A stretch of DNA of 20,857 nucleotides. It comes from a virus. This document shows positions 3,997-20,501 of this stretch, piece after piece; the stretch's first letter is position 1; each line of letters opens with the position of its first letter. A program made the position numbers and the translations under genes. The notes beneath the pieces are model-generated. The model was not told the DNA's origin. It searched no databases and saw only the letters and a list, made by a program, of their open reading frames with translations. The DNA is taken from positions 1 to 20,857 of the IMG/VR virus record IMGVR_UViG_3300048779_000112, one strand, 5' to 3'.

Positions 3997-3998
3997 AC

Positions 3999-4555: not shown

Positions 4556-4556
4556 C

Positions 4557-4582
4557 TTGTTTATAAGGCTAGTTATAAACAA
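4557..4582. other. Perfect 10-bp AT-rich hairpin between virion genes
   Basis: TTGTTTATAA (4557-4566) pairs with TTATAAACAA (4573-4582) around a GGCTAG loop, one base after the preceding stop. No T-run follows on the plus strand, so it is not a classical terminator. It may act in RNA processing or protect a 3' end. The next gene has its own AGGTGA ribosome-binding site. Confidence 0.55.
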
Positions 4583-4605
4583 TAACAAAAAAATATAGGT
4601 GAACT

Positions 4606-5199
4606 ATGCCAAAATTCAGCGAATGGCTCTTCGGAAGCCCAGACAAATTGAAAAAAGTAGCTACAGGGACAAAAGAGCAGCAAGGTTTGCATAATAGCAT
4701 CCTTGGTCAAGCCATGGGGATGCAAGGCCAGGGCGGCGGTTATGACCTCGCTCAAAACTATTTCAATAATTTCCTTGGTGATAATCAACAGCAAGCTTTC
4801 GATCAGTTTTCCCAGCCATATATGCAGCAATTCCAAGAGCAGATGCTTCCTCAGATTGCAGAGAGATTCGCAGGCGGTGGAGCATTGTCTTCAAGTGGCT
4901 TTGGTCAATCATTGGGGGGAGCAGCTTCCGGATTACAATCCCAGCTAGCTCAACTATTTTCACAGCTTCAAAGTCAAGCGGCTGGACAACAGTACAATCA
5001 ATACAATCAACTTTCTCAGACAGGACTTAATTACCAGCCCTTTGCTTATCAACAAAAACAAGGTTCTGGGGGCATGTTAGCTCCTCTTCTTGGTGGTATT
5101 GGCACTGCTATGGGGGGTCCGATTGGAGCCGCTCTAGGGCAGGGAATCGGAGGAGGAATAAGCAGCCTGTTTAAAGGCGGCGGGGGAGGAATGGCATAA
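4606..5199 (+). CDS. Putative DNA-ejection protein 1 (P22 gp7-like position and size)
   Basis: 197 aa, rich in glutamine and glycine. A short N-terminus (FSEWLFGSPDKLKKVATG) is followed by a glutamine-rich helical core, with a GGGALSSSGFGQSLGGAASG hinge at about residues 87-106. The C-terminus is a glycine-rich hydrophobic stretch (about 158-190: LAPLLGGIGTAMGGPIGAAL) that could insert into membranes, ending in a GGGGG tail. These are typical features of internal virion proteins delivered into the host envelope with the DNA. It is the first of three consecutive genes whose lengths (197, 429, 594 aa) track P22 gp7, gp20 and gp16 (229, 471, 609 aa). The stop overlaps the next start (TAATG). Confidence 0.6.
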   Translation: MPKFSEWLFGSPDKLKKVATGTKEQQGLHNSILGQAMGMQGQGGGYDLAQNYFNNFLGDNQQQAFDQFSQPYMQQFQEQMLPQIAERFAGGGALSSSGFGQSLGGAASGLQSQLAQLFSQLQSQAAGQQYNQYNQLSQTGLNYQPFAYQQKQGSGGMLAPLLGGIGTAMGGPIGAALGQGIGGGISSLFKGGGGGMA

Positions 5200-6488: not shown

Positions 6489-8269
6489 ACTATCAAGAAA
6501 AGTATCAAAAGGCTAAACAAGCTGGATATTCTGACGAAGAAATCATGGAATTCCTTGGGGAAAAAGACCCAAGCTTTGGACAGAAGATTGAGCAGGCGAA
6601 AGAAGCTGGCTATACCCCTCAAGAAGTTTTAGGTTTCTTTAATTCCGCTCCCAAGAAAGAAAAAATGGGCTTCGGCGATTATGCTGCGGATTTCGGCAAG
6701 CAAACGGCCCAGGGCTTCGGAATTGGTGCGCTTGGTACATATGGTGATATTCTCGATTTATTCGGCCTACAGGCCAAGGAAACGCTTCCTGGCGAGCAAG
6801 CCAAATACAGCCGAGAATTCGATATCTTAGAGAAAATGGAAAGGGGAGAAGTTCCTTCAGCCGGCGAACTCATGGAACTTTCCGGAGATGATGATATAGC
6901 TCCTCGATTCTCAAGGCTTCCATCTTCTGAAGATATTCAAAATATAGGGTCTGAATTAGGACTCGTTTCCGAACCAAAATCAGCAGCAGGTCGTTATGGT
7001 CGTCGCATTGGTAAAATTGGTGGCGGAAGCCTTGCGGTTGGTGGCACGGGCCTTGTGGCTCCTATCGTAGCTGGCGCAGCTGGACAGACATTAGAAGAAG
7101 CTGGAGCTCCTCCCTGGGCACAAGCCGCAGCTGAAATCATAGCTGCCTTAAAGTTCGCGCCTAAGACTAATGTACCTGTCACATCCAAATCAAAAGAAGT
7201 TGAAAACGTAATCAAGGACTTGAGAAAAGCTGGTTATTCCGAGAAAGACATCACCCTTGCAAAGAGTGCTCTTGAAGAAAGAAAGATACTGAAAAAGTAT
7301 GCCTCACTAACGCCAGAAGCAGAAAATGCAATAAATTCTGGAGTTAAAAACAGTGAGAATCTATTTAAAGAACAAATCAAAAAGGGGTTACCTGGCTATG
7401 CTGAAGGCGGTTTACAATACCTTGAAAAACAAGCTTCAAACGTTTATCAATCAATGGAGGAATTGGCCTCCAGCGTGCCCATAAAAAACACTGCTCCAGT
7501 TAAGAAATCCATCGAAAACGCCATTGCCTATCTTGAGAAATATCCTCTTCTCGATGAACAAAAGAAGTTCATTGAGTTCATGAAAGACGGTCTCACAAAG
7601 CTTGACAAGGCAGACACAGCAGAATTCTTCACAGGATTCTATCGGAATTTGGGCAAAGCTGGAAATTGGGGAGACCCGAAGCAGAAAGAACATTTGCTTG
7701 GATTAGTCAAGCAGGGGATTAAGGATACTTTTGCAGAATCTGGCCCAGAAGCTGCCAAATTCGGGAAGTATTTCGATGCCACCAATGAAGCCTGGAAGAA
7801 ATGGCTTAATGCTCGAGACCTGATGCAAACTATTGAGAAAGCTCAAAACGTCGATGGCATGAACTTCAAAAAGCTAACTTCTATTCTTAATGATTCCCAT
7901 AACCATGAACTTGCCAAAAAAGTTTTAGGTCCTGAGCAAGTAAAAAATATCCAAACTATTTCTGATGGTGCACAAGCTATCGAATCTTTGCTTAAACAGA
8001 TTCCAAAAAATGATAAAAGTGCTCAGGAATTAAAATTACTATCAGCTTTAGGGGCACTTTTTATTCATGGCAGAAAAGAACCATTAGCAGCCTTTATCGG
8101 CTTGGAAGCGGCCAAGAGATTTTCTACTAATCTTTTGACTGATCCTGCAAAGCAAAACACAATGAAACGTCTTATCATAGCTGCAAAAAATAACTCACCT
8201 CAACAAGCAGCTATATTAGCTCAAGAATTGATTAAAGAAGATTCCTCTCAATCCAAAGCAAAACAGTAG
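6485..8269 (+). CDS. Putative DNA-ejection protein 3 (P22 gp16-like position and size)
   Basis: 594 aa. Two tandem helical repeats open the protein: KAKQAGYSDEEIMEFLG (about residues 8-24) and QAKEAGYTPQEVLGFFN (about 37-53). A related third copy, LRKAGYSEKDITLAKSAL, lies near residue 245. A glycine/alanine-rich hydrophobic region at about residues 170-210 (GKIGGGSLAVGGTGLVAPIV) could cross or enter a membrane, as expected for a protein that helps DNA cross the inner membrane. The rest is charged and helical. No lysozyme or transglycosylase motif is evident. It is the last gene of the left virion operon. Its final codons overlap a tiny antisense gene. Confidence 0.6.
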   Translation: MNYQEKYQKAKQAGYSDEEIMEFLGEKDPSFGQKIEQAKEAGYTPQEVLGFFNSAPKKEKMGFGDYAADFGKQTAQGFGIGALGTYGDILDLFGLQAKETLPGEQAKYSREFDILEKMERGEVPSAGELMELSGDDDIAPRFSRLPSSEDIQNIGSELGLVSEPKSAAGRYGRRIGKIGGGSLAVGGTGLVAPIVAGAAGQTLEEAGAPPWAQAAAEIIAALKFAPKTNVPVTSKSKEVENVIKDLRKAGYSEKDITLAKSALEERKILKKYASLTPEAENAINSGVKNSENLFKEQIKKGLPGYAEGGLQYLEKQASNVYQSMEELASSVPIKNTAPVKKSIENAIAYLEKYPLLDEQKKFIEFMKDGLTKLDKADTAEFFTGFYRNLGKAGNWGDPKQKEHLLGLVKQGIKDTFAESGPEAAKFGKYFDATNEAWKKWLNARDLMQTIEKAQNVDGMNFKKLTSILNDSHNHELAKKVLGPEQVKNIQTISDGAQAIESLLKQIPKNDKSAQELKLLSALGALFIHGRKEPLAAFIGLEAAKRFSTNLLTDPAKQNTMKRLIIAAKNNSPQQAAILAQELIKEDSSQSKAKQ

Positions 8270-8300
8270 CTCCAAAAACAAACGCTAAAATAATAATCAT
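8232..8300 (-). CDS. Candidate 22-aa single-pass membrane micropeptide
   Basis: The product is 22 aa, starts MIIILAFVFGATVLLWIE and ends RNLL: one hydrophobic segment and a charged end. The start shares an ATGA overlap with the stop of the 63-aa gene, and that gene shares an ATGA overlap with the HNH gene before it, so it would be the last member of a coupled chain. Its last 38 bases run antisense to the end of ejection protein 3. Chance hydrophobic ORFs of this size occur, so the overlap pattern and the clean membrane segment are the only support. Confidence 0.4.
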   Translation of the reverse strand: MIIILAFVFGATVLLWIERNLL

Positions 8301-8488
8301 TTCTTAAACTCCTTAAATACACTATGGAAAATATCTTCATTACCTTCTTTTCTTAATGAATGTGCTAATGCTCCAATTAACTCTTCTAACTCGCTATTAT
8401 CTTTACCTTTTAAAAACTCAACTTGATGCGCTATTGCTAAAGTTTCTAATAATAGTTTCTTTTGTTTTTCGTTTATATATAAATTCAT
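8297..8488 (-). CDS. Small charged helical protein (63 aa), function unknown
   Basis: 63 aa, coupled by ATGA overlaps both to the HNH gene upstream and to the 22-aa micropeptide downstream. The sequence is fully helical in character (NEKQKKLLLETLAIAHQVEF, then ELEELIGALAHSLRKEG), with no cysteines and no membrane segment. It is a distal gene of the minus-strand cassette containing the SPFH protein. I recognise no family. Confidence 0.6.
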   Translation of the reverse strand: MNLYINEKQKKLLLETLAIAHQVEFLKGKDNSELEELIGALAHSLRKEGNEDIFHSVFKEFKK

Positions 8489-8673
8489 TTTCTACCGTAG
8501 TTTTTTGTAATTACTATCAAATTTTCTATTCTATTATCTCTTGAATCTCCATTAATGTGATAAACATGTTCATGGGATTCTAATAATCTACCAAGGTGTT
8601 CTTCCATTACATGGCGATGAACTGTTTTCTTTACTCCTTTTATTGTCTTATGTGGATAGAAATTCTTGCTCAT
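8485..8673 (-). CDS. Minimal HNH endonuclease-like protein lacking the last ligand, probably a remnant
   Basis: 62 aa, with AAGGAT 6 bases before the ATG. It contains RHVMEEHLGRLLESHEHVYH, then an INGD and DNRIENL stretch, the core of HNH-type phage endonucleases. In that family the core is followed by a further helix carrying the last histidine (compare QEHARIHHK in the second HNH protein at 15570-16205). Here the protein stops at VITKNYGRK, so that histidine is missing. The two proteins share most positions between MEEHLGR and DNRIENL and are clearly paralogues. This copy is likely inactive or the trimmed relic of a homing endonuclease, though it still couples by ATGA to the next gene. Confidence 0.7.
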   Translation of the reverse strand: MSKNFYPHKTIKGVKKTVHRHVMEEHLGRLLESHEHVYHINGDSRDNRIENLIVITKNYGRK

Positions 8674-8698: not shown

Positions 8699-9565
8699 TC
8701 ATTTTTTTTCTACAAATTTACTGACATCAATTATATTAGAACCTGATCCCGATACAATACTCAAGCGGCCATCCCATTTCTGAACTGCTTGCCACTGAAT
8801 CAATTCAGCGGTGACGGATTGTGATAGCAAGTGATTGGCTTTGGCTTCGGATTCAGCTTGCACGATAGCACACTTAGCTTGTCCTTCTGCTTTGGCCACT
8901 TGTTTTTTTGCCTCGGCTTCAGCTTCTCTAAGTTCGTTTTCACGTTGCTGAGCCCTCTGGTTTGCTTCAATCTTAGCATTTAAGGCAGCGATAACATTGG
9001 TAGGAAAGTGAAACCTTCCTATTAGATAGATTCGGCTTAGGTCAATTCCGATAGGCGCTAAATCCTCTCTCACATGCTTCTCTACGTCTTCGAAGAAGGA
9101 TTCTTTCCCAGAGTACAAATCTTCGATGCGAGTTTTACTAGCAGACTTATTGATAGCATCCCTAATATAATTCCTGATAAATACGTGAGTAATTTCATCC
9201 ATCCCGCGTCTATATCGTTGAAATATGAGAGGGATAGACTCTGGTCTAAGATGATAAGTAATGCCAATATCTGCACTAACCGCCATACCTTCTGACGTTT
9301 GAAAGTTAAAGCCTTCACGGTCTCCCTCCCATGTATCATTTTGTTCAAAGATTGGAAATTGATAGACACTGCGCCAAGGTGCTATCCAGTGCATGCCTAC
9401 ATGCAGCTCTTTTGATTCAACGCCTTTATTGTCACCTAAAAGATCAACAACCACTCCAACATATCCTGGAGAGATCATTTTGAAGCAGAACGCCCATGCA
9501 AAAAATAATGGGATTACAATCACGCAACTCCATCCTATCAGTTTTTTTTCCAAGCCTTTTTTCAT
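8699..9565 (-). CDS. SPFH / band-7 (prohibitin, HflC-like) membrane protein
   Basis: 288 aa. I chose ATG 9565 with AAGGAC upstream; the codon before it is TTG. Residues 9-29 form a single membrane segment (LIGWSCVIVIPLFFAWAF). The band-7/SPFH fold covers about residues 32-190, starting SPGYVGVVVDLLGD and including GMHWIAPWRSVYQFP. Residues 196-248 form the alanine/glutamate coiled coil typical of the family (ELREAEAEAKKQVAKAEGQA). SPFH proteins form large cage-like oligomers on membranes and often regulate membrane proteases. It would be anchored in the inner membrane with its bulk on one side. It lies in an antisense cassette between ejection and fibre genes, where P22 has its superinfection-exclusion gene sieA. 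Confidence 0.88.
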   Translation of the reverse strand: MKKGLEKKLIGWSCVIVIPLFFAWAFCFKMISPGYVGVVVDLLGDNKGVESKELHVGMHWIAPWRSVYQFPIFEQNDTWEGDREGFNFQTSEGMAVSADIGITYHLRPESIPLIFQRYRRGMDEITHVFIRNYIRDAINKSASKTRIEDLYSGKESFFEDVEKHVREDLAPIGIDLSRIYLIGRFHFPTNVIAALNAKIEANQRAQQRENELREAEAEAKKQVAKAEGQAKCAIVQAESEAKANHLLSQSVTAELIQWQAVQKWDGRLSIVSGSGSNIIDVSKFVEKK

Positions 9566-9578
9566 CAATTGTCCTTTT

Positions 9579-9773
9579 TTAAGGGTCTGTTTTTGGTTTG
9601 CTTCTAATTTTCTCTTCTGTAGTGCAAAGTCTTCCGTGGAACTGCTTCATTTCTGCTTGAATATTTTCGATTATTCTACAGGTGTGCAGAAAGTCAGTTC
9701 TGGACTGTCTTACGGCCCAGAGAAACAATCCTAAATTAGCCCCTACTATTGTTAAGACTTGATACCATTCCAT
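9579..9773 (-). CDS. Small membrane-anchored coiled-coil protein (64 aa)
   Basis: 64 aa, with GGGAG 7 bases before the ATG. An N-terminal hydrophobic segment (MEWYQVLTIVGANLGLFLWA) is followed by a soluble helical tail containing QAEMKQFHGRLCTTEEKIR. The combination of a short N-anchor, a helix and an 'FHGRLC-x-x-EE' end recurs in unannotated phage and mobile-element proteins. It sits 10 bases upstream of the SPFH gene, in the same transcript, so a joint membrane complex is plausible. It could be mistaken for a holin or inner spanin. I see no second membrane segment or partner outer spanin next to it. Confidence 0.7.
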   Translation of the reverse strand: MEWYQVLTIVGANLGLFLWAVRQSRTDFLHTCRIIENIQAEMKQFHGRLCTTEEKIRSKPKTDP

Positions 9774-9784
9774 ATTTTTACTCC

Positions 9785-9979
9785 CTATTTTTTATTCTCA
9801 CACATGCCCTGAAGATGCAATCTCTCTAGCTCAGACTCGGCAATTCTATAGGGGCCTTTCTTGCCCATGCTAGGACGCGTTGCGAATATTTTACCTTGCT
9901 TGATTGACCTTCGAACGCTTCCAGGATGCATCTTAATACGCTTAGCGAACTCTTCTACGGTCAGAAAATTCATGTCCAT
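9785..9979 (-). CDS. Small helix-turn-helix DNA-binding protein (excisionase/HTH_17 type)
   Basis: 64 aa. The frame is open to 10012, but the predicted transcript starts near 10006. AAAGGAG lies 8 bases before ATG 9979, so I take that as the start. LTVEEFAKRIKMHPGSVRRS followed by KQGKIFATRPS is the standard first half of a MerR/excisionase-like winged HTH (sensor helix, turn, recognition helix SVRRSIKQGKI, wing). No integrase is present in the window, so it is more likely a regulator of its own cassette than an excision factor. It is the first gene behind the duplicated promoter and is well placed for autoregulation. Confidence 0.7.
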   Translation of the reverse strand: MDMNFLTVEEFAKRIKMHPGSVRRSIKQGKIFATRPSMGKKGPYRIAESELERLHLQGMCENKK

Positions 9980-10006
9980 ACCTCTTACTCCTTTAGTAAC
10001 ACACAC

Positions 10007-10042
10007 GATCACATTGTCACATATTTCGCATTAGAAGTCAAC
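10007..10042 (-). promoter_or_regulatory. Promoter/operator copy A, driving the antisense SPFH cassette
   Basis: On the minus strand TTGACT (complement of 10036-10041) is followed by 17 bases and GACAAT (complement of 10013-10018). Transcription would begin near 10006, 27 bases before ATG 9979. The block 10007-10025 is identical over 19 bases to 18493-18511, and the AAGTCAAC at 10035-10042 recurs at the same 28-base offset. The -10 lies within TGTGACAATGTGA, a TGTGA direct repeat that may bind a regulator. Confidence 0.75.
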
Positions 10043-10129
10043 CTTTTGTTACTCAATAAACATATATATTGACTTGCGTGAATTTTATACAGCAGTTTTT
10101 GGAATAGAACCCCAAACCGGAGTAAAACT

Positions 10130-10942
10130 ATGTCCAAGATGTTTCAAGTTTACGGGATCGGTCAGGCTTTAATTCCTGTACTGCCTCCCCCTTTGCCTTT
10201 CGAAAATCCACCAACTAGCAACCAAACAAACTATGAAATTGGACAGCTAGTTTTTAGTCCACCTCAAGCTCCTACAGCTTTTTATCTGTATGGTGGTGCA
10301 GGTAACTGGATTCAATTTGCCAGCAGCTCTGGAGATATTATCGCTATTAACGATACAGCAAACCAAGTCACCGTTACTACGGTCGCTGGTGTTGCCACAG
10401 TTTCACTTCCCGCTGCTATTACGACACCAGGCTCTTTAACCACTACTACCAGCTTAGCCGCAGGGACTACCGTCACAGCCGGTACAGGAATCACAGCCAC
10501 CACAGGCAACATCGTTGCTTCTGCTGGAGCGGTTTCAGCAAGTACCACTGTCACAGGGGGAACGGGTGTCACAGCTACCACAGGAAACGTCACAGCCTCA
10601 GCAGGTAACTTGGTTGTGGCTGGTGCAGGAAAAGGTATCGTTATACCTCCTGTTGTTGTTGGCGCTGGCGCTTCTCCTCAGACAGCCAATGGACGTGCGT
10701 TTGCAGTGACATTCAGTGGAGTTAGCATTGGGGCAACAGCTACTCAAACTTTTGTTATCAATAACTCGGCAGTGAATACTCAGGCTTTGATTTCTATGAT
10801 AGGAGCAACAACAGGGTCTGCTCTTACCATTCAAAGTGTGACCTATTCAGCTGGCGTATCCATAACCATTGTTGTAGAAAACGGCGCGGCTCTCCTTACA
10901 AGCACTGCGAATATCACGTTCACAGGCTTATGCCTTAACTAA
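10130..10942 (+). CDS. Tail-fibre-like repeat protein (270 aa)
   Basis: 270 aa, preceded by CCGGAG about 9 bases before the ATG. A proline-rich start (residues 10-32, including VLPPPLPFENPP) leads into a small beta domain (GQLVFSPPQAPTAFYLYGGA). Residues about 105-165 are a low-complexity T/A/G/V region with two copies of 'TVTAGTG-ITATTGN-IVASAG' (first TAGTGITATTGNIVASAG, second TGGTGVTATTGNVTASAG). Such repeats form trimeric beta-helical or beta-prism shafts in phage fibres. The C-terminal domain is beta-rich (TFVINNSAVNTQALISMIGA). It begins the fibre locus after the antisense cassette, and probably forms a short fibre or a fibre base. Which virion part it joins is unknown. Confidence 0.6.
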   Translation: MSKMFQVYGIGQALIPVLPPPLPFENPPTSNQTNYEIGQLVFSPPQAPTAFYLYGGAGNWIQFASSSGDIIAINDTANQVTVTTVAGVATVSLPAAITTPGSLTTTTSLAAGTTVTAGTGITATTGNIVASAGAVSASTTVTGGTGVTATTGNVTASAGNLVVAGAGKGIVIPPVVVGAGASPQTANGRAFAVTFSGVSIGATATQTFVINNSAVNTQALISMIGATTGSALTIQSVTYSAGVSITIVVENGAALLTSTANITFTGLCLN

Positions 10943-10956
10943 TAGGAGGAAACGTT

Positions 10957-11304
10957 ATGTCTTTTACAAATAGAGCTTTAGTAGATACGCTTAGAACTAT
11001 AGCTTTTGGTGCCGTAGGCGCTACCTTTGTTCCCGTAGGTCCTCCTCTTGCTTTCCCAGCAAGGATTATCTGCTTCACCAATACCAGTGCTGTAGACTTA
11101 ATCTTCAGCATGGATGGCGTTACCGATCAATTGATTGTTCCTGCTGGGAGCTTCAAGCTGTTCGATATTACTACAAATCACCGCCCTGTCAACCAAGATG
11201 ATTTCTGTTTCTCAAACGGAACTCAATGGTATGTCAGGTATGTTTCTGGAGCCCCCTCATCAGGATCGGTGTATATTGAAGTCGTCTACGCGCAACCATA
11301 CTAA
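10957..11304 (+). CDS. Small beta-sheet virion protein (115 aa)
   Basis: 115 aa with a strong AGGAGG 8 bases before the ATG. The N-terminus is RALVDTLRTIAFGAVGATFV and the rest alternates strands and turns (ARIICFTNTSAVDLIFSMDG, PAGSFKLFDITTNHR), ending YIEVVYAQPY. This pattern, a short beta-sandwich with a 'FTNTS ... F.MDG ... PAGS' core, appears in uncharacterised phage structural proteins near fibre genes. It may be a fibre-associated decoration or connector. No enzymatic motif is visible. Confidence 0.6.
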   Translation: MSFTNRALVDTLRTIAFGAVGATFVPVGPPLAFPARIICFTNTSAVDLIFSMDGVTDQLIVPAGSFKLFDITTNHRPVNQDDFCFSNGTQWYVRYVSGAPSSGSVYIEVVYAQPY

Positions 11305-11356
11305 TCCGCACGTTCTAGGAGCGGAAAAAAGATTCGATGCCCTTGTTAAGAAGGAG

Positions 11357-11968
11357 ATGATGGAACATGAACACATCATCTCCTCTCATCATAAAGAGAT
11401 GCAGGAATTAAGGAATGGACTATCTCTTGCCATGGAAAGATTTGAATCTTTATCCAAAAAGAACGAACAAGAATTGAAAGAATTTAAGGAATATTCCTTA
11501 AAACATATCTGTCTGATAAAGGACAGAATGATAGCCAATGACAATATTATTGCTGACCAAAAGAAGACAATTGAATCTCTTCATAAGCAATTAAATGAAT
11601 TCCATGAGGTTTATGCGAGCAAAATAGTTGTCCAGAAGTTCAAAGATAATTTTCAGCTCGAAATAAAAGCCAACACAATCAGTCATTTAAACGCCTTTCA
11701 GGAGTTTCAAAGGGAATTAAAGAATTTAATAAACTCCCTGCAAAATGAATTGATAAAACTAAGATGTGACACGTCATTGATGAATGGCGAACTCGATAAT
11801 AAGATTGAGAAAGCTCTTTCTATATCAAGAATGGATCGAAGTGATGTTTTAAAAGAAATTAGAACGTACGAAAAAACTATCTTTATTATCGAAAAGAAGA
11901 TTGAAAATATTTATACGTTAATAGAAAGACTAAATAAAAGGGGTGAAGTATGTCACAAGCCGGAATAG
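11357..11968 (+). CDS. Long coiled-coil protein between fibre genes (203 aa)
   Basis: The frame is open further upstream, but everything before 11305 is the shadow of the previous gene, so I start at the ATGATG pair (11357 or 11360). The start is odd: AAGGAG (11351-11356) abuts the first ATG. The product is almost entirely helical, with heptad-like runs (KKNEQELKEFKEYSLKH, then RELKNLINSLQNELIKL). It ends CHKPE, overlapping the start of the large fibre gene by 19 bases. It could be a fibre stalk, an assembly chaperone, or a clamp between fibre and baseplate; the sequence does not decide. Confidence 0.65.
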   Translation: MMEHEHIISSHHKEMQELRNGLSLAMERFESLSKKNEQELKEFKEYSLKHICLIKDRMIANDNIIADQKKTIESLHKQLNEFHEVYASKIVVQKFKDNFQLEIKANTISHLNAFQEFQRELKNLINSLQNELIKLRCDTSLMNGELDNKIEKALSISRMDRSDVLKEIRTYEKTIFIIEKKIENIYTLIERLNKRGEVCHKPE

Positions 11969-14784
11969 TAGACTTCGAGGGTTCACATCCTCAGGTCCCA
12001 ACATTATTTGTCGCCAACGTAGGTTCGGCTGTCCCCATAGCTAATACTCTAGAAATCCTAGGTACAGCGGTTTCTGCACATAGCATTCCCTTGGAAACCA
12101 TAGGGTCTGGCAATACTATCACCATTGAAGCTCAGTATACTTCGGCAAGCGGTTCCTCCTCTGCCAATAACGCCGGCTTAGCTTCTTTCAACTCAACTTA
12201 TTTCAATGTCGATGCAAATGGATTTGTTACACTGAACGGCTCTTCCATGGGAGAGACGATTACAGGGAATACCGGAGGGGCTCTTTCTCCCGTTGCAGGT
12301 AATTGGAATATTTTGGGAACTTCGACTGCTGCCGGAACCACTCCAGTTCAGACGTCCGGTTCAGGAAATACGCTAACAGTTCAGGTTCAGAAATCACAAG
12401 CTATTGCTTCCACAAATGCATCAAATGTGGGTTTAGCTGCATTCAATAGCACCTATTTTACTGTGGACGCTAATGGCTTCGTTTCTTTAGTAGCTGCTTC
12501 TCTTGTTGAATCTTTGGTTGTAGATACATTTACCGCTCCAGGCACTAATCCTGTCCTATCAAACTCCAGCGGACAAATTGGCATTACAGGAGGGCAAGTC
12601 GCCGCAGGGACAACAACCAACGTCATTCGCACCGATTCTCTAGCTGCCAACACTTATACAATCCAAATTCAGAGAAGCCAAGCTGTAGCCTCTTCAACAG
12701 TGGGCGATAATGGTGTGTCTCACTTCAACAGCACTTATTTTACCGTAGATGCTAATGGTTTTGTTTCATTAAATGGGTCTGGTGTAGGCGAAACCATTAC
12801 AGGGAATACAGGAGGCGCCTTATCTCCAACAAGCGGAAATTGGAACATATTAGGCTCAGGAAGCATCACAACTTCAGGAAGCGTAAGCACCTTGACCGTC
12901 CAATTGACTGGCTTAACAAACCATGCAATCCAAGTAGGAGCTGGTACGGCTACTTTAACACAAGTGGGCCCATCAGCCACCTCAGGTCAGCTATTTCAGT
13001 CTAAGGGCTCAACTACTGACCCCGCGTTTACGACATCAACTTACCCAAGCACTAATGCCACGGGCGATATAGTTTATGGGTCAACTACGAACGTTTTATC
13101 CACTTTAGCTATTGGTTCAACTGGAAACGTCCTACAAGTGGTTGGAGGACTCCCAGCATGGGCTCCTCCTGCGACTGGAGGAACAGTCACAAGCGTCTCT
13201 GGAACTGCTAACCAAGTGGCTGTTGCCAATGGCACTACAACTCCGGTGATTTCTCTTATCGGGCCATATACACCTGCTACGTATACCGCTCATGGCGTCC
13301 TTATTGGTGAAGGCACAAGCTCTATCGTTGCTACGACAGCAGGCTCCGCTGGCCAACATCTTCAATCAGGCGGAGGGGCTGCTGATCCGAACTGGACGAC
13401 TGCAACGTTTCCTTCAACTGCTACCGGAACAGGAACTATTTTAAGGGCTGATGGTACTAACTGGAGTGCAACAACAACCACATATCCAAATACGAACGCC
13501 ATCAATACTATAATGTATGCTAGCAGCGCGAATATTCTAGGTTCAATCACAGCTGCAAATAACGGCGTCCTTATATCAGGAACTACAGGGGTTCCTTCTT
13601 GGCTAGGTGCAGGAACAACAGGACAAATTCTTACTGCGACAACAGGATCTCCTCCTTCTTGGGCAAGCCCCTCGGCATCTGCGATAACGATAACGGGTGA
13701 TAGTGGGGGAGCCTTATCCGGGAGCGCCTTTACTTTTACCGGTGGCACGACAGGGTTGACTTTTGCAGGTGCTGGAACGACTGAAACACTGGGAGGTATC
13801 TTAGCTTTAGCTAACGGCGGTACAAATGCCAATCTAACCGCATCCAATGGGGGCATTTTTTATTCTACAGCGACAGCCGGAGCTATATTAGCAGGTACGG
13901 CAACGGCGGGTCAAATGTTGCAATCGGGAGCTTCTACAATCCCATCTTGGAGCACATCGACTTATCCATCTACTAATGCTATCAATACTTTACTATATGC
14001 TTCGTCGGCTAACGTCATGTCTGCCTTGTCTACAGCAAACAACGGCGTTTTAACCACGAATAGCTCAGGTGTCCCGGCAATAACGGCTTTAGGAAATAAC
14101 CAATTCATAGCTACAAATTCGGCGGGTACTCCAGCGGCTCGAAGTTTCTCAGTCGTTCGTCAAGTTTTTACTTCTTCAGGAACCTACACGCCTACGACAG
14201 GAATGCTCTATTGTGACATAGAGGTTGTAGGTGGTGGTGGTGGCTCTGGAGGCGTTTCAGCTACATCCGCCACAACTATCTCAGCTTCTGGAGGTGGCGC
14301 AGGGGGTGGATATGCTAGAAAGCTTGTGAGTGCTGCAACAATAGGGGCTTCTCAAACAGTCACAATTGGCGCAGGAGGAACGGCTGGATCAGCAGGAGCT
14401 AATACTGGTGGTACAGGGGGAATAACATCGGTAGGAGCAATTGTTTTAGCTACAGGAGGAGGTGGTGGTGCGGGAACTGCAGCCGGCAGCGCGATATCTA
14501 ATGCAAACATAAATTCTGCTGCAGGAGGAACGGGTTCGGGAGGCGATTTTAATACTACTGGTGGTATGGGAGGGTGTCCATTTGGCTTTTATCTGGCAGG
14601 TATAGGCTCACCTATCATTAATGGACAAGGCGGAACAACTTTTTTCGGTGGCAATTATTATGGTTCAACTGCTTCATATGGAGCTGGAGCACTCGGTCGC
14701 ACGAGTTATGCTGGAACAGTAGCGAGCGTGGGACTTGCGGGATTTAAGGGTATTGTCATCATTACCGAATTTATTATAAATTAA
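11950..14784 (+). CDS. Major tail fibre with repeat shaft and glycine-rich receptor-binding tip
   Basis: 944 aa; GGGTGAAG precedes the ATG. Residues about 70-330 hold three copies of a module with FNSTYFxVDANGFVxL (near 79, 165 and 258); copies one and three add GETITGNTGGALSP and GNWNILG. A second module, 'TYPSTNA-x-x-x-x-x-YASSANV ... NNGVL ... GVPxW', occurs near residues 362, 510 and 670. After about residue 735 the tip opens FTSSGTYTPTTGMLYCDIEV and then becomes more than a third glycine (GGGGGSGG, GGGAGGG, GTGSGGDFNTTGGMGGC), ending KGIVIITEFIIN. Glycine-rich C-termini of this kind form polyglycine-helix tips that contact the receptor in T4-like gp38 adhesins. A fragment of an alternative tip lies directly downstream. 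Confidence 0.8.
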   Translation: MSQAGIVDFEGSHPQVPTLFVANVGSAVPIANTLEILGTAVSAHSIPLETIGSGNTITIEAQYTSASGSSSANNAGLASFNSTYFNVDANGFVTLNGSSMGETITGNTGGALSPVAGNWNILGTSTAAGTTPVQTSGSGNTLTVQVQKSQAIASTNASNVGLAAFNSTYFTVDANGFVSLVAASLVESLVVDTFTAPGTNPVLSNSSGQIGITGGQVAAGTTTNVIRTDSLAANTYTIQIQRSQAVASSTVGDNGVSHFNSTYFTVDANGFVSLNGSGVGETITGNTGGALSPTSGNWNILGSGSITTSGSVSTLTVQLTGLTNHAIQVGAGTATLTQVGPSATSGQLFQSKGSTTDPAFTTSTYPSTNATGDIVYGSTTNVLSTLAIGSTGNVLQVVGGLPAWAPPATGGTVTSVSGTANQVAVANGTTTPVISLIGPYTPATYTAHGVLIGEGTSSIVATTAGSAGQHLQSGGGAADPNWTTATFPSTATGTGTILRADGTNWSATTTTYPNTNAINTIMYASSANILGSITAANNGVLISGTTGVPSWLGAGTTGQILTATTGSPPSWASPSASAITITGDSGGALSGSAFTFTGGTTGLTFAGAGTTETLGGILALANGGTNANLTASNGGIFYSTATAGAILAGTATAGQMLQSGASTIPSWSTSTYPSTNAINTLLYASSANVMSALSTANNGVLTTNSSGVPAITALGNNQFIATNSAGTPAARSFSVVRQVFTSSGTYTPTTGMLYCDIEVVGGGGGSGGVSATSATTISASGGGAGGGYARKLVSAATIGASQTVTIGAGGTAGSAGANTGGTGGITSVGAIVLATGGGGGAGTAAGSAISNANINSAAGGTGSGGDFNTTGGMGGCPFGFYLAGIGSPIINGQGGTTFFGGNYYGSTASYGAGALGRTSYAGTVASVGLAGFKGIVIITEFIIN

Positions 14785-14798
14785 TTTTAAAACCATAA

Positions 14799-14957
14799 AT
14801 TTACGGCGGTGGTGGCGCATCCAAATTAAATAACGGTGCTGGTATTACAGGTCAAGCTTATGGCGGTGGTGCTAGCGGAGCAGGAGGAATCGGAACCGTA
14901 GCCCAGGCCGGTGGTGCTGGAGCCGCTGGTCTTGTTATCATTACCGAATATATCTAA
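14799..14957 (+). pseudogene. Orphan 3' end of an alternative tail-fibre tip
   Basis: The open stretch has no start codon (TAA at 14796-14798, then ATT). It translates to IYGGGGASKLNNGAGITGQA, then a GGGASGAGG segment, and ends LVIITEYI followed by TAA. The end matches the end of the intact fibre 170 bases upstream (IVIITEFI; both DNA copies contain ATTACCGAAT). It is therefore the displaced C-terminus of an older or alternative glycine-rich tip. The fibre stop at 14782-14784 and TAA 14796 prevent read-through. Confidence 0.75.
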
Positions 14958-14992
14958 GAAAAAAATTGAAAAAAATAAATCGGAGGGTGTAC

Positions 14993-15202
14993 ATGTATTA
15001 TTTATTATTGCTAATGCCGTTCATAACAGGCTGTCAATATCTCCCACAAGTTGCGCAGGATATTGAAAACATAGCAACTGATACAGCGATTAGAGTAGAA
15101 GTTTCAAGAGAAACCTTCCTAAAGGAAACCGATCTTGAGATTAACATTAATGTTCAAAACAAAGATGAACCGGTGGTCAAGACCCCAAAGGAAAAATCAT
15201 AA
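14993..15202 (+). CDS. Small lipoprotein (69 aa)
   Basis: GGAGG stands 6 bases before ATG 14993; the frame is open to a TTG at 14966, but that start has no ribosome-binding site. The N-terminus MYYLLLLMPFITGCQYLPQ is a short lipoprotein signal with lipobox I-T-G-C, so Cys14 would be lipidated and the protein attached to the outer or inner membrane. The mature part is about 55 residues, helical then beta-like (AIRVEVSRETFLKETDLEIN), with a charged lysine-rich end. Small late lipoproteins next to fibre genes are often outer spanins (Rz1-like). This one is not proline-rich, and no inner spanin is visible beside it, so that role is a guess. The stop overlaps the next start (TAATG). Confidence 0.65.
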   Translation: MYYLLLLMPFITGCQYLPQVAQDIENIATDTAIRVEVSRETFLKETDLEININVQNKDEPVVKTPKEKS

Positions 15203-15429
15203 TGCTAGACGAAATCAAAAATCTATTTAATGAAGGATTACAGTATACACATACTGCCGGTCTTTTGCAACAAATCGCTAACATCGTCAATATCGTGCAT
15301 GCTCAATACATGAAAGATGGCGGAGATGGAAAGAATGCAGCGATTGACGCGATTTGTGCAATTCTCCAAAGCCATAAAGATGCACCAGCTCCAGTAGCTC
15401 AACCGGCAGCACCTGCCCAGGCGGCATAA
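15202..15429 (+). CDS. Small helical protein with alanine/proline tail (75 aa)
   Basis: 75 aa, coupled to the lipoprotein gene by a one-base overlap. A helical body (GLLQQIANIVNIVHAQYMKD, then GKNAAIDAICAILQSHK) is followed by the low-complexity tail APAPVAQPAAPAQAA. No signal peptide, membrane segment or metal site is seen. It belongs to the short late operon of the lipoprotein and DUF6496-like genes; function unknown. Confidence 0.65.
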   Translation: MLDEIKNLFNEGLQYTHTAGLLQQIANIVNIVHAQYMKDGGDGKNAAIDAICAILQSHKDAPAPVAQPAAPAQAA

Positions 15430-15430
15430 C

Positions 15431-15580
15431 ATGCCACTAGTAAAGAGCGGCTCGAAAAAAGCCATAGGCGAGAATATAAAGGAAGAATCAAAGACTAAAC
15501 CTCATAAACAGGCAGTCGCGATAGCTTTGAATGTAGCTCGCAAAGCGGGATCTTCCATACATAAAAAAGTTAAGAAGTAG
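15431..15580 (+). CDS. DUF6496-like small basic protein (49 aa)
   Basis: 49 aa, starting one base after the previous stop. It begins MPLVKSGSKKAIGENIKEES and contains KPHKQAVAIALNVARKAGS. The 'KSGSKKAIGENI ... PHKQAVAIAL-x-x-ARKAG' pattern is characteristic of the small phage proteins grouped as DUF6496, whose role is unknown. The last 11 bases overlap the end of the antisense HNH gene. Confidence 0.75.
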   Translation: MPLVKSGSKKAIGENIKEESKTKPHKQAVAIALNVARKAGSSIHKKVKK

Positions 15581-16205
15581 ATATTTTTTTATGATGAATG
15601 CGTGCATGCTCTTGCGGTGACAAAACCTGAAGATTTTCAATTCGATTATCTGTGGGATCTTCGTTTATGTGATGCACGTGTTCTTTCTTTTTTAATTTTC
15701 TTCCCAAGTGCTTTTCCATTATAGAGCGGTGTTCATAGAATCTTATTTTGTTTATTTGTTTTCTTTTTCGGGGATTGGACCCTAATTTTACAGATTTTTT
15801 TTTGAATCCATAGCTCAATTTTTCTTCGCTCATAGATTTACCTTTGCATTTTCTAGAACAGAATCTTATTCCCGTTTTACTAAATAAGAATGTACTGGGA
15901 GAAGTCATGAATTTCCTATGACAAAAATGACATGATATCTCTATCTTAGAGTATCTTTTTGCTCCATTTAGGCTTCCGAGTCCACTGCATTTTTTAGAAC
16001 AATATTTTTTATTTATCTGGCTAGGTGTAACATAAATATTTTTTTCACAAATTAAGCATTTTTTTTCTTTACCATTTTTTATTTTAGGTATTAAATTTGA
16101 ATTATGAATCCTAGACCTTGCGGAACATGATCTTGAACAAAAAATTTGATTTTTTTTGTTCCTTTTAGGTAAAAATTCTACTTTGCATTGAAAACAAATT
16201 TTCAT
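15570..16205 (-). CDS. Zinc-ribbon HNH endonuclease (free-standing homing type)
   Basis: 211 aa from ATG 16205. The frame runs further upstream to 16349, but those 48 codons are the shadow of the lysine-rich gene on the other strand. Three CxxC...CSxxC zinc modules come first: CFQC with CSRSC, CLIC with CSKKC, and CHFC with CSRKC. A basic linker (GSNPRKRKQINK) leads to the C-terminal HNH domain: EHRSIMEKHLGRKLKKKEHV, then HHIN, DNRIENL and QEHARIHH. All three histidine/asparagine positions are present, so it is probably active. It is antisense to the surrounding late genes, very rich in A and T, and has the look of a self-inserted homing endonuclease gene. It is a paralogue of the short HNH protein at 8485-8673. 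Confidence 0.8.
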   Translation of the reverse strand: MKICFQCKVEFLPKRNKKNQIFCSRSCSARSRIHNSNLIPKIKNGKEKKCLICEKNIYVTPSQINKKYCSKKCSGLGSLNGAKRYSKIEISCHFCHRKFMTSPSTFLFSKTGIRFCSRKCKGKSMSEEKLSYGFKKKSVKLGSNPRKRKQINKIRFYEHRSIMEKHLGRKLKKKEHVHHINEDPTDNRIENLQVLSPQEHARIHHKKISTS

Positions 16206-16233
16206 AAACAATCCCGGTTGATTGGAGGATACC

Positions 16234-16368
16234 ATCGATAAACAAATAAAGAAAGAAAAGAAAGCCATGGATAAGGGCATGGAAAAGCTCGAACGCATGG
16301 ACAAGAAGAATGACAAGAAGCATGAGAAAATGGGCATGAAAAAGGCCATGAAGAAGAAAGGATGCTAA
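16234..16368 (+). CDS. Lysine/methionine-rich small protein with possible ATC start (44 aa)
   Basis: The stop at 16366-16368 and frame are clear. The strong GGAGG (16224-16228) stands 5 bases before an ATC, not an ATG. Reading from ATC gives IDKQIKKEKKAMDKGMEKLE, then DKKNDKKHEKMGMKKAMKKK and a final GC. The first ATG is at 16267 and has no clear ribosome-binding site; using it leaves 33 aa. The repeated (M/I)DK-x-x-KK pattern continues through the ATC part, so that part is coding in character. TTG 16222 is another possibility but overlaps the GGAGG. It follows the HNH insertion, which may have disturbed its start. Confidence 0.5.
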   Translation: MDKQIKKEKKAMDKGMEKLERMDKKNDKKHEKMGMKKAMKKKGC

Positions 16369-16370
16369 GT

Positions 16371-16403
16371 TAATCCCTATAGTCGCTAGTACTATAGGGA
16401 TTA
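16371..16403. terminator. Bidirectional terminator hairpin between convergent operons
   Basis: TAATCCCTATAGT (16371-16383) pairs perfectly with ACTATAGGGATTA (16391-16403): 13 bp with a CGCTAGT loop. It lies 2 bases after the plus-strand lysine-rich gene and 6 bases after the minus-strand exonuclease stop, so it could end both transcripts. U-tracts are weak on both sides. Confidence 0.7.
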
Positions 16404-16409
16404 TTTCAG

Positions 16410-17276
16410 TCAAGCAACCATAATCTTCCAGGTGGTCGTTGTACCCTTTCGATATTTATCGAGGTCAACGCCTTTGATTTCTGGAATCTCATCATAGGCC
16501 ACACGGCCGCGAACTATCGTCTTCATAACCTTAATCCCATCCCCTAAACAGTTTTGATCGCCACAGAGCTTTAAAAGCTCTTTCCTATAGCTTTCTTTAA
16601 CCTCTTCAAGAGTTTTAATCTGCTCATTGAGCTTGCGATACTGCTCGGCATATCCTTTCCATGTGGGCGTATCTGACATGTCCTTATAGTCAGAGTCTTG
16701 CAAAGTAGGAGGCTCATTGAAAGCTATACACTTCAAGAAAGCTCGCGCTACTGGGATAAAATTCTTTGCAAAATCAGGATGAGGGAACACCTCAATTACC
16801 ACATCTTTTTCCTCATCTTCACTACCTACTTGGTAGAAGCATTTCTCTGCCCCCGTCACTAGCAATTGATGTTGCATTTGGTCGAGGTAATATTGCGGTA
16901 CAACAGCCTCTAGGGCCTGTTTATATAGGTTGTGACCTCCAGTTTTTACCTCCAATATGTACTTGCCGCAGTCAGATAACCCGTCCAAGGATGCACCTAG
17001 GAAGTCATATTCAGAACTTTCAACGACTATGGGAGTCATATTCAATCCGAATTTTTTTATGAACCTGTCACGTATGACAGGCTCTAATCTCTTACCTCTT
17101 TCCATCGCATCATTGCTAGGCTGCTCGGGGATGAGTCCCAGCTTTCTTTGCCAGCATTTATATGCGGTCGACCAAGGAGAGGAACCCAGAATAGCTGGGC
17201 AATCCGTCGCAGTGATGATTGTCTTTCTCCAAGACAGCCATTCTTCTGAACCTTGCTCAAGATTAATTGTTTTCAT
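16410..17276 (-). CDS. YqaJ / lambda-exonuclease-type recombination nuclease
   Basis: 288 aa. The N-terminus QGSEEWLSWRKTIITATDCP is the standard start of the family (Q-x-S-x-EW-x-x-R...ITAT). PD-(D/E)xK-type residues follow: E65 in GKRLEP, D98 in GASLDGL, and the E109/K111 pair in LEVKT, then the Q-rich helix QMQHQL (133-138). The C-terminal third contains a helical bundle (QYRKLNEQIKTLEEVKESYR). It degrades one strand from double-strand ends to yield single strands for the annealing protein encoded just upstream. The start overlaps that gene's stop (TAATG), so exonuclease and annealer are made together as a Red/Erf-like pair. Confidence 0.9.
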   Translation of the reverse strand: MKTINLEQGSEEWLSWRKTIITATDCPAILGSSPWSTAYKCWQRKLGLIPEQPSNDAMERGKRLEPVIRDRFIKKFGLNMTPIVVESSEYDFLGASLDGLSDCGKYILEVKTGGHNLYKQALEAVVPQYYLDQMQHQLLVTGAEKCFYQVGSEDEEKDVVIEVFPHPDFAKNFIPVARAFLKCIAFNEPPTLQDSDYKDMSDTPTWKGYAEQYRKLNEQIKTLEEVKESYRKELLKLCGDQNCLGDGIKVMKTIVRGRVAYDEIPEIKGVDLDKYRKGTTTTWKIMVA

Positions 17277-17971
17277 TATGCCACCGCCTTTGCTTGTTCT
17301 TTATTTTTGTCGTTTAGATACTTAATTTTAGCATTGAGAGAAACCATGCACTTCTCGAAACAAGCCTTAGGAATATCCTGTATTGATTCGGCGTTGAATG
17401 ACTTCTTAATCCAATCACGAAAGGATTTGTTGCTTTCCTCATCTAAGTTCTGAATTAGTGTTGTCAGAGCTATAATCTCCGTCTTGCCTACTCGCTCAGC
17501 GGGAGCTTGCTCTTTCGGTTGAGCTGGAGGTGGTGGCGGAGTCTGATTGTTACTTTGCTGTTGTGATTTCCCTCTTCCTGATTCTGTTTCTCCGTCATCG
17601 TCCTCATCGCATACTACGCCTACAATTGCGCTCAGGCTATATCTACGTAGATACGTAATTGCGGCGCCGATACCCTGGCTATCATTCTTAGCAGGATTCA
17701 AAGGAAGGAATGACTTAACCCATTGTCCAGAGGTATGAGCTAATGTGGTAACCATGATGATTTTGCTGCCATCAGAATTCATTTCGGTCGTCTGCATAAT
17801 GCAAAGGCCGTATTTACTAAGTACTGGGCGAGCTGCATCCCATACACTTCCTAAGTCCGCATAAGAACTCTTAAAGAAAGGGTTTACCTTATCCTTAATC
17901 GCTGCTTGCATTTCCCCTTGTGCTTTTGATAAAGCTGCTGCTAATTCATTAATAACTTCTGACTGTGACAT
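17276..17971 (-). CDS. erf: Erf-family single-strand annealing protein
   Basis: 231 aa. The frame continues to ATG 18037, but AGGAAAG 7 bases before ATG 17971 and family alignment favour MSQSEVINELAAALSKAQGE as the start. Erf-family features: NPFFKSSYADLGSVWDAARP, SKYGLCIMQ, TTLAHTSGQWV, then DSQGIGAAITYLRRYSLSAI and an acidic CDEDDDG. Residues about 130-160 form a Q/N and proline linker (TPPPPP), followed by a small helical tail. P22 Erf, the family's namespace, binds and anneals single strands, and can circularise phage DNA. It is encoded with the exonuclease and is read from the duplicated promoter at 18493-18528. Confidence 0.9.
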   Translation of the reverse strand: MSQSEVINELAAALSKAQGEMQAAIKDKVNPFFKSSYADLGSVWDAARPVLSKYGLCIMQTTEMNSDGSKIIMVTTLAHTSGQWVKSFLPLNPAKNDSQGIGAAITYLRRYSLSAIVGVVCDEDDDGETESGRGKSQQQSNNQTPPPPPAQPKEQAPAERVGKTEIIALTTLIQNLDEESNKSFRDWIKKSFNAESIQDIPKACFEKCMVSLNAKIKYLNDKNKEQAKAVA

Positions 17972-18039
17972 AATTTCTTTCCTATATAATTTTGTTTTTG
18001 ATAGTTTGGCGTTGCATATATATCCTCGTTTTTTCATAC

Positions 18040-18094
18040 GGGGTGGGATGGTCCCACCCCACTCCTTTCAGTCGGTTACAATTTGACACCGACT
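18040..18094. other. Two perfect hairpins in the leader before the Erf gene
   Basis: AGTCGGT (18070-18076) pairs with ACCGACT (18088-18094). GGGGTGGGA (18040-18048) pairs with TCCCACCCC (18052-18060) around a 3-base loop, a very stable 9-bp stem. On the minus strand the order is: stop of the 59-aa gene, hairpin 1, AAAGGAG, hairpin 2, GT, then the ATG at 18037. No U-tract follows, so they may tune expression or stabilise mRNA rather than terminate. Confidence 0.6.
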
Positions 18095-18273
18095 CAGAAA
18101 AAGTCTCTCCAAGAAAGACCTAAGCAATCCATACAATTGCCGCAGCAATGTTGCTCCAGATTTGTGTCGTCTTCATCTTGCTCCAAATCTGTGTCAACTT
18201 CGTTTTCTAATTCTACACCATGCATTGACATAATCTCCGCATGGCTCCATTGGCCCCAATATGCTGTGCTCAT
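18094..18273 (-). CDS. Small acidic cysteine-motif protein (59 aa)
   Basis: The ATG is 2 bases after the preceding stop, consistent with coupling. The product starts MSTAYWGQWSHAEIMSMHGV. A strongly acidic centre carries an imperfect duplicate (DTDLEQDE then DTNLEQH), visible in DNA as GACACAGATTTGGAGCAA and GACACAAATCTGGAGCAA. It ends HCCGNCMDCLGLSWRDFF. The CCxxC-x-x-C cluster could bind zinc or another metal. It lies in the early recombination operon, upstream of Erf, and its overall charge suggests it binds a protein. No family recognised. Confidence 0.55.
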   Translation of the reverse strand: MSTAYWGQWSHAEIMSMHGVELENEVDTDLEQDEDDTNLEQHCCGNCMDCLGLSWRDFF

Positions 18274-18275
18274 GA

Positions 18276-18461
18276 TTAGAACCCATACATGTACTCGATT
18301 TCTCGAATATTGCTTGCTTGCTTCTCAAGTTCTCTAATTGTATGTTCCATCAATGAGGATGCAAAAGAATTGTAGTTCTCTGGCTTATTGATAAAGGACT
18401 CTAGACCTTTTGCAATAGCTGCGATGTTGGCGCTCGCAGTTTCTATTTCTTGATTTTTCAT
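18276..18461 (-). CDS. Small helical early protein (61 aa)
   Basis: First gene behind the duplicated promoter, with its ATG about 30 bases from the predicted transcript start. A GTG at 18473 in frame would add four residues, but it has no better ribosome-binding site. The product is one helical unit (QEIETASANIAAIAKGLESF, then SSLMEHTIRELEKQASNIRE) ending YMYGF, with no cysteines or hydrophobic membrane segment. Function unknown; expressed with Erf and exonuclease. Confidence 0.6.
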   Translation of the reverse strand: MKNQEIETASANIAAIAKGLESFINKPENYNSFASSLMEHTIRELEKQASNIREIEYMYGF

Positions 18462-18492
18462 ATCTACTCTCACTTGGTTTTGTGTTACGTAA

Positions 18493-18528
18493 GATCACAT
18501 TGTCACATATTGTAACATGCAAGTCAAC
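18493..18528 (-). promoter_or_regulatory. Promoter/operator copy B, driving the recombination operon
   Basis: On the minus strand TTGACT (complement of 18522-18527), 17 bases, then GACAAT (complement of 18499-18504); the start would be near 18492. Bases 18493-18511 are identical to copy A (10007-10025), and AAGTCAAC falls at the same offset. TGTCACA (18501-18507) and TGTAACA (18511-18517), both TGTNACA palindromes, lie 10 bp apart, one helical turn, and overlap the promoter, as operators would. Confidence 0.75.
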
Positions 18529-18583: not shown

Positions 18584-18640
18584 TCCAAATGTATCGGAAT
18601 TCCGGATTTTTGTCCACAAAAAGAAATAAAAAAGGGTTAT

Positions 18641-18901
18641 ATGGTGAATAAATTCGCAGAATGGATGAAAAATAACGATAAGAAACAGAGAGGAGTAGCA
18701 GAAAAACTCGGCATCAGTACATCTACACTTCACGATATACTGAGAAAAGAACAAATGCCAAGTCTTAAGGTTGCCTATGAGATAGAGCAGTGCACAAAAG
18801 GCGCTGTTACTATCTATGATTGGCTGGATCAACCAGCTGAACAAAAAAAGCCAATCAAAAAAATCGATGCCAAACCAAAAGCACAAAAAATCAAGAAATA
18901 A
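18641..18901 (+). CDS. Cro/CI-type helix-turn-helix regulator
   Basis: 86 aa, with GGGTT just before the ATG. The HTH is clear: FAEWMKNNDKKQRGVAEKLG then STSTLHDILRKEQMPS, i.e. helix 2 (RGVAEKLG), the turn and the recognition helix (STLHDILR), followed by helices 4-5 (LKVAYEIEQCTKG). The shape resembles YdaS/Cro-type proteins. The C-terminus is disordered and lysine-rich (PAEQKKPIKKIDAKPKAQKI), longer than a bare Cro domain. It is divergent from the recombination operon and 100 bases from the TGTNACA-like sites there. It is the best candidate for the regulator of both copies of the duplicated promoter, though no binding evidence exists. Confidence 0.8.
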   Translation: MVNKFAEWMKNNDKKQRGVAEKLGISTSTLHDILRKEQMPSLKVAYEIEQCTKGAVTIYDWLDQPAEQKKPIKKIDAKPKAQKIKK

Positions 18902-19509: not shown

Positions 19510-19693
19510 TAAAGAACTTTATTGCTTTGGGTGTGACATTTATGCTAGGGTATTAAATGAAAATGCCTCGATTCGTAGTCGAGGCATATTCGGTGGCGCT
19601 TGGGAACGCACTTATGATTGTCTTATGGAGACGTCAATCATTCTAACATCCCATGTTAAAAGATGCAACTCTTTTATGGGGTGGTATGTCTGA
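19502..19693 (+). CDS. Small cysteine-containing protein (63 aa), coupled between replication genes
   Basis: 63 aa. It overlaps the previous gene by 8 bases (ATGAATAA) and the next by 8 bases (ATGTCTGA). Such fit on both sides is the main evidence that it is translated. It contains CFGCDIYARV near the start and two more cysteines, RSRGIFGGAWERTYDCLMET, and no hydrophobic segment. A perfect 9-bp hairpin, ATGCCTCGA/TCGAGGCAT (19563-19571, 19579-19587), lies inside it and may mean that this stretch has an RNA role as well or instead. Function unknown. Confidence 0.45.
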   Translation: MNNKELYCFGCDIYARVLNENASIRSRGIFGGAWERTYDCLMETSIILTSHVKRCNSFMGWYV

Positions 19694-20501
19694 AAGATTT
19701 CTCAAATTTATCCCCTCTGAGGAGGCGTTCTGGCTAATGCAATATAAGCCAAATGCTTTCAGATTACTTTCACATATAGCCAATACAGCTCGCCGATACA
19801 ATGGTCATCCTGATGGATTAATCGTTGGTCAATGTCATTTGCAATCATGGAATTTTTATGGTTTAAGCGAACAAGAATACCGAACAGCCAAATCAATTCT
19901 TCTAAAGAGAAAACATATAATAATTATTGAAACTAACAGAACACGCAAAAAGTCAACGACCGGAGCAACGACCAATTCAACTCTCGTACAACTTTGTAGC
20001 TTAACGATTTGGGATATAAATTCTGAAGAGCCTAACGACCGAATCAACGACCGAGCAACGACCGAGCAACGACCGAGCAACGACAAACAAGAAAGAATAA
20101 GAAAAGATATATCTAACGATATATCTAATGAAGAAGAAGCTCTGCGCGCTGGCACTCATCCGGCTTCGCCGATTCGCGCAAAAGATTTATTAATTTTCAA
20201 TTTCGAGAAGTGGGAATTCGAAGGCATCACGGAACAAGATCTCGCTGACTGGAAACTCATGTATCCGCACATCGACATCAAAGTTGAAACTCTCAAAGCC
20301 TCTCAATGGCTAAAAAACAATCCTTCAAAAAGCAATAAGAAACAATGGAGGAAGTACCTTACAGGTTGGTATGGACGATCAAATGACTCAATTGAGAACA
20401 AAAAAGCTTACCGATCTGCTACCGGCGGAGCTACGCAAGATAGGCGAACAAAAAACAAAGACGGTACCCCAATCAGCAGTCGAGCCGAGGACCTCTTTTA
20501 A
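19686..20501 (+). CDS. Phage replication initiator (lambda O-like) with internal iterons
   Basis: 271 aa from ATG 19686, preceded by GGGGTGG; an ATG at 19653 is in frame but lacks a site. The N-terminal ~105 residues form a winged helix typical of phage initiators (AFRLLSHIANTARRYNGHPD, then GQCHLQSWNFYGLSEQEYRT). Residues ~115-150 are a low-complexity linker encoded by DNA iterons. The C-terminal part (FEKWEFEGITEQDLADWKLM ... LKASQWLKNNP ... KKQWRKYLTGWYGR) has the tryptophan-rich pattern of domains that contact the helicase loader. The next gene is a DnaC-like loader, as O is followed by P in lambda. It should bind the iterons within its own gene and recruit the host helicase. Confidence 0.75.
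   Translation: MSERFLKFIPSEEAFWLMQYKPNAFRLLSHIANTARRYNGHPDGLIVGQCHLQSWNFYGLSEQEYRTAKSILLKRKHIIIIETNRTRKKSTTGATTNSTLVQLCSLTIWDINSEEPNDRINDRATTEQRPSNDKQERIRKDISNDISNEEEALRAGTHPASPIRAKDLLIFNFEKWEFEGITEQDLADWKLMYPHIDIKVETLKASQWLKNNPSKSNKKQWRKYLTGWYGRSNDSIENKKAYRSATGGATQDRRTKNKDGTPISSRAEDLF
19955..20128. other. Candidate replication origin: iterons plus AT-rich direct repeats
   Basis: AACGACC occurs at 19955, 19967, 20034, 20046, 20057 and 20068, with AACGACA at 20079. The last four are 11 bp apart (unit AACGACCGAGC), the pair before that 12 bp. The 11-bp period breaks the reading frame, so the DNA rather than the protein is repeated. About 20 bases downstream GATATATCTAA occurs twice (20106-20116, 20118-20128) in an AT-rich tract. 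This is the lambda layout: iterons, then an easily melted region, inside the initiator gene. Confidence 0.65.

Follow-up and report, generated by a model that had tools for sequence, protein, structure and literature searches.

The window, the whole stretch of DNA analysed here, is a virus record of 20,857 nt that holds no further contig. Its minus strand carries two putative promoter/operators, designated A and B, which lie 8.5 kb apart, each followed by a leftward group of genes:

9991–10042, minus strand: putative promoter/operator A, 52 nt, with -35 TTGACT (10036–10041), a 17-bp spacer and extended -10 GACAAT (10013–10018); units TGTGACA (10015–10021) and TGTTACT (second unit, 9995–10001)
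9785–9979, minus strand: HTH_17 protein, 64 aa, excisionase/Cox-type winged helix, constantly present behind A; proposed regulator
9579–9773, minus strand: small protein whose N-terminal part is hydrophobic; most relatives have short proteins like it
8699–9568, minus strand: SPFH/Band_7 protein, variable cargo
8297–8673, minus strand: HNH endonuclease (8485–8673) and a 63-aa protein of unknown function (8297–8488), variable cargo
18477–18528, minus strand: putative promoter/operator B, 52 nt, with -35 TTGACT (18522–18527) and -10 GACAAT (18499–18504); units TGTGACA (18501–18507) and CGTAACA (second unit, 18483–18489), and an additional TGTTACA in the spacer (18511–18517)
18094–18461, minus strand: two small conserved genes of unknown function heading the operon behind B (18276–18461 and 18094–18273)
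16410–18037, minus strand: Erf-like annealing protein (17276–18037) and RecE-like exonuclease (16410–17276)
15570–16349, minus strand: HNH endonuclease gene downstream of the exonuclease
18590–18611, no strand assigned: predicted Cro-type operator TGTATCGGAATTCCGGATTTTT, unlike the A/B operator
18641–18901, plus strand: Cro-like HTH_3 protein, divergent from B

The start of the HTH_17 gene was placed at the ATG at 9979 and not at the GTG at 10012, which overlaps the -10 of A.

As the original prediction held, the two minus-strand elements are nearly identical: both have TTGACT, a 17-bp spacer and GACAAT preceded by TG (extended -10 TGTNACAAT), an identical 19-mer, GATCACATTGTCACATATT (10007–10025 in A and 18493–18511 in B), and AAGTCAAC at offset 28. 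The 19-mer occurs only these two times in the window, with no further match at up to 3 mismatches (0.01 expected in shuffled sequence), and the likeness of A and B is far above chance. A recent duplication of the promoter region was ruled out, because only defined blocks match, the surrounding bases being different, and because both positions are old in relatives; this agrees with the view that the blocks are under selection, as what is predicted from their sequence to be a promoter-operator.

Relatives were fetched from viral contigs with Erf, HTH_17 and Cro-like proteins, giving approximately 43 records, many of 37–41 kb. They share a gene order of rightward Cro-like and replication genes, a leftward recombination operon and rightward tail genes, with the leftward HTH_17 cassette situated among the latter. 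Just upstream of the rightward tail gene at 10130, the plus strand of the window (10069–10095) contains a conserved TTGAC(T/C)-N6-GAATTTTATACAGCA element, kept in more than 20 relatives in essentially one copy per genome, which is a putative late promoter of unusual spacing.

A position matrix was refined on the contigs of these relatives for sites of 52 nt. With a cut-off of at least 15 bits it identified A before the HTH_17 cassette in 25 contigs and B before the Erf operon in 12, both counts including the window, and the reversed matrix used as control gave zero matches on the same contigs. G035 and G036 each contributed a further A site (52 bits). In G039 the site is weak (18 bits), and a small-protein gene stands before the one for HTH_17. 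Free divergence of the blocks, which the original prediction had named as contrary evidence, is thus not what the relatives display: about 28 related uncultured phages keep a recognisable A ahead of the HTH_17 cassette, and B is kept in 12. A calibrated sequence profile found a match in 29 of the 43 whole records, and at most two strong copies in any one of them. In two phages (G003 and G035) a third, weaker site, C, adjoins the terminase small subunit gene and precedes small genes on the strand of the Erf operon (C lies at 4755 in L005 and at 907 in L089; the small leftward genes behind it include one for a J-domain-like protein). In a stringent exact-pattern scan of the collection with the correct spacing there were four matches, one of them a known relative, and the same kind of scan with an 18-bp spacer, as a chance control, also gave four. 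No phage record in the annotated collection matched the tail-region protein at 6485–8269 or the HTH_17 protein, and the genome contigs matched in a search for the host or cultured relatives were mixed metagenome bins.

Both A and B were seen in ten records, which are all the B-bearing records that hold an HTH_17 gene; the two records with only B are fragments without it. Many relatives possess the same Cro-like gene and Erf operon but have no B. The 19/19 identity of the window is extreme: in the nine further phages that have both sites, 9–15 of the 19 bases are identical, and among 290 pairs made of A from one phage and B from another the mean is 11.8 and the highest value 17. The likeness of A and B within a phage barely exceeds that between phages (four segments tested, p 0.04 in one), and the evidence for their co-evolution within one phage is marginal.

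TGTGA and TGTNACA elements overlie the -10, as had been claimed, a TGTNACA unit there being shared by the A/B sites, and position 3 of the -10 is a C in 32 of 37 sites, whereas sigma-70 prefers a T there. Beyond the hexamers, the sites share a T and an A near -28, a TG near -25, RTGTNACAATRTG over the -10, and a pattern of T/A past the transcript start. A second TGTNACA-like unit is situated downstream of the first, the distance being 20 bp for A and 18 bp for B; its mean score of 4.57, compared with 3.28 (sd 0.12) in shuffles, beats all 500 composition shuffles, and it varies together with the first unit (rho 0.42, p 0.005), these p-values overstating independence because all the sites are related by descent. 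Repeat self-similarity peaked at 20 bp in A and at 18 bp in B, with 1 and 9 out of 100 column shuffles as high, respectively; between the units so spaced there is a weak extra unit, and the 10-bp periodicity is weak. Direct and inverted arrangements are hard to distinguish because TGTNACA is palindromic, and a palindromic unit would also suit a dimeric repressor. Elements covering the -10 and the start region are typical of repression. The shared units beyond the sigma-70 features lead us to regard A and B as a shared operator, a reading of the sequences that is well supported. In the diverged relative G039 (L092, ca. 2766–2817, minus strand), an inverted repeat, TGTCATTC-N9-GAATGACA, replaces the TGTNACA units.

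Alternatively, A, B and C might be plain strong extended -10 sigma-70 host promoters, kept for their strength and sharing no phage regulator. Much of the conservation does consist of the -35, the TGn and the -10; the exact pattern also matches an apparently unrelated contig with an ordinary-looking promoter, CTTGAC...TATGTTACAATATGATTACAAGGAGG (L098/L100); and the matching of A and B within a phage is weak. However, the -10 retains its C at position 3, the TA..TG of the spacer is conserved along with the second unit past the start, and the PR (TATACT) and PL (TACATT) candidates of the same genomes lack this signature. Additionally, G005, a relative whose HTH_17 has diverged, has a more canonical -10, TATAGT, and no TGTNACA at the position of A. 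We consider this alternative rather doubtful. The poor -10, matching the consensus at only 4 of 6 positions in most sites, and the two to three copies per genome, always on the leftward strand, would also fit a phage-specific class of promoters that need an activator or a modified RNA polymerase and fire together at one stage; nevertheless, the near-perfect -35, the 17-bp spacing and the extended -10 should suffice for transcription, and the extra conservation covers the -10 and the bases after it, not the upstream side, on which an activator would normally bind, which makes this possibility improbable.

The original prediction also named the product of the gene at 18641, along with that of the gene at 9979, as a protein whose binding to both sites should be checked. 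The predicted Cro-type operator TGTATCGGAATTCCGGATTTTT near this gene lies within a second candidate for a leftward promoter (18616–18588 on the minus strand, TGGACA-17-TACATT), and in most relatives a TATCGGAATNCCGGAT-like palindrome occurs around 29 nt before the start codon of the Cro-like gene, with or without B. Three relatives (G001, G002 and G008) have B and lack the palindrome. The Cro and A/B systems thus appear to be separate, because the palindrome of the Cro-like gene differs from the A/B operator and occurs independently of B. That this HTH_3 protein of the Cro/CI type, which adjoins B and whose identity shows a non-significant trend with the score of A (rho 0.44–0.47, p 0.06–0.09, n 16), is the common regulator of A and B is hence very improbable, given the different conserved palindrome at its own promoter. 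Elsewhere on this side of the window there are an 11-base tandem repeat, CAACGACCGAG (20045–20082), inside the reading frame 19653–20501, a ACGACCGA-rich stretch like it being present in the relative L077, and a terminator-like structure on the minus strand (19563–19587), with a strong 9-bp hairpin and a T-rich tail.

The cassette behind A varies among relatives. In a family search of 30 relatives with the HTH_17 gene, an RtcB RNA ligase was found in 12 and SPFH in six, all 12 RtcB and six SPFH genes being on the strand of A and within ca. 4 kb behind it; a methyltransferase-like protein and HNH nucleases were also read from sequence in the cassettes of relatives. Because of this variability, the genes that A drives are probably an accessory island and not a set membrane module, and the particular tie to membrane functions that had been proposed is not supported, RtcB being commoner than SPFH in the same island. 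In one relative (L038 of G027, ca. 3743–5737), a 726-aa RtcB reading frame behind A is apparently interrupted by an intein-like insertion.

The HTH_17 gene is the one DNA-binding gene constantly found behind A. Its product matches PF12728 (34.8 bits, with a cut-off of 27) and PHROG 66, 575 and 2907 (excisionase/Cox), and this match, together with its short winged helix-turn-helix, fits the phage regulators of the Cox/Apl/Xis type. The integrase that proteins of this type are expected to accompany, aiding excision, was not found in 21 related records: neither tyrosine integrases (PF00589) nor resolvases (PF00239) were detected there, with control genomes positive and the window itself partial, nor was the S24 repressor family. 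This argues against the prophage stage suggested for the cassette, the signs of a temperate switch sought in the 21 relatives (an integrase or an S24-type CI repressor) being absent, and makes a purely transcriptional role of HTH_17 likely. The divergence of HTH_17 did not correlate significantly with loss of the element (rho 0.13–0.18), and the co-divergence of site and protein was not significant either when the neighbouring tail gene was used as a control. As these comparisons were unsupportive, HTH_17 is a candidate binder. Its predicted structure has low confidence (pLDDT 62); a Foldseek search of the model against the PDB gave nothing significant, BldC being among the weak structural matches, and no PDB relative was found by sequence. 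HTH_17 is nevertheless the most likely regulator of A and B, judging from its constant position and protein family, and the idea of a single regulator, with HTH_17 as best candidate, is plausible. The shared operator is compatible with one regulator switching both operons, as originally predicted, but this coupling appears to be optional, because many relatives have the same Erf operon but no B; B would add the recombination operon to A-type control in about half of the lineage.

Temperate phages with repeated operators include those with L5-type stoperators and P1 with its c1 sites. The A/B system resembles them in reusing one recognition sequence at distant places of the genome, and differs in that whole putative promoter-operators are involved, two or three per genome, and in that no immunity repressor was found here. 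The direct repeats bound by Apl of phage 186 are helically spaced, and Apl represses both early promoters (PMC7498355). As with Apl and with Cox of P2, a small winged-helix protein of the excisionase type would here act on repeated units over early promoters; unlike in those phages, a search of 21 relatives detected no integrase, 8.5 kb separates the two sites, and the island has exchangeable cargo, with the units spaced by 18/20 bp instead of the 10–11 bp of Apl sites. BldC, a wHTH protein of about 68 residues, acts through repeated promoter units and binds in the same manner as Apl (PMC5859096). HTH_17 is similar to this protein of a MerR-like family in being a small wHTH associated with repeated promoter units, with a structural match that is not significant, although HTH_17 is phage-encoded and its unit would be TGTNACA, in contrast to the 9-bp units AATTXXXX(C) of BldC.

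We consider it about an even chance that A and B are copies of one promoter-operator and that HTH_17 is an autorepressor similar to Cox and Apl, co-regulating the accessory island and, where B is present, recombination. RNA polymerase would start leftward transcription, that of the early strand, from both sites: from A, of the HTH_17 protein, the small membrane-like protein and an exchangeable cargo (SPFH in the window; RtcB RNA ligase, HNH nucleases or methyltransferase in relatives), and from B, of the Erf/exonuclease recombination operon. The TGTNACA unit over the -10 and the one that follows shortly after the transcript start would be on approximately one face of the helix, and HTH_17, as a winged helix of the Cox/Apl/Xis/BldC type, would bind them cooperatively, repressing rather than activating its own promoter A and also B.

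More tentatively, in this uncultured lineage without detectable integrases, an excisionase-type protein may have turned into a stand-alone regulator heading a swappable island (SPFH, RtcB, HNH or methyltransferase), its operator being planted also before the recombination operon, with a third early operon included in some phages, such that a small regulon would couple island and recombination. The HTH_17 protein is then predicted to bind pairs of TGTNACA units, and the cargo genes behind A in relatives to have early functions. If true, this would illustrate how phages can place accessory genes within the late region in the opposite orientation and still keep them under early control through one operator-regulator pair; site A would mark a cargo slot in which to seek new accessory genes of the lineage.
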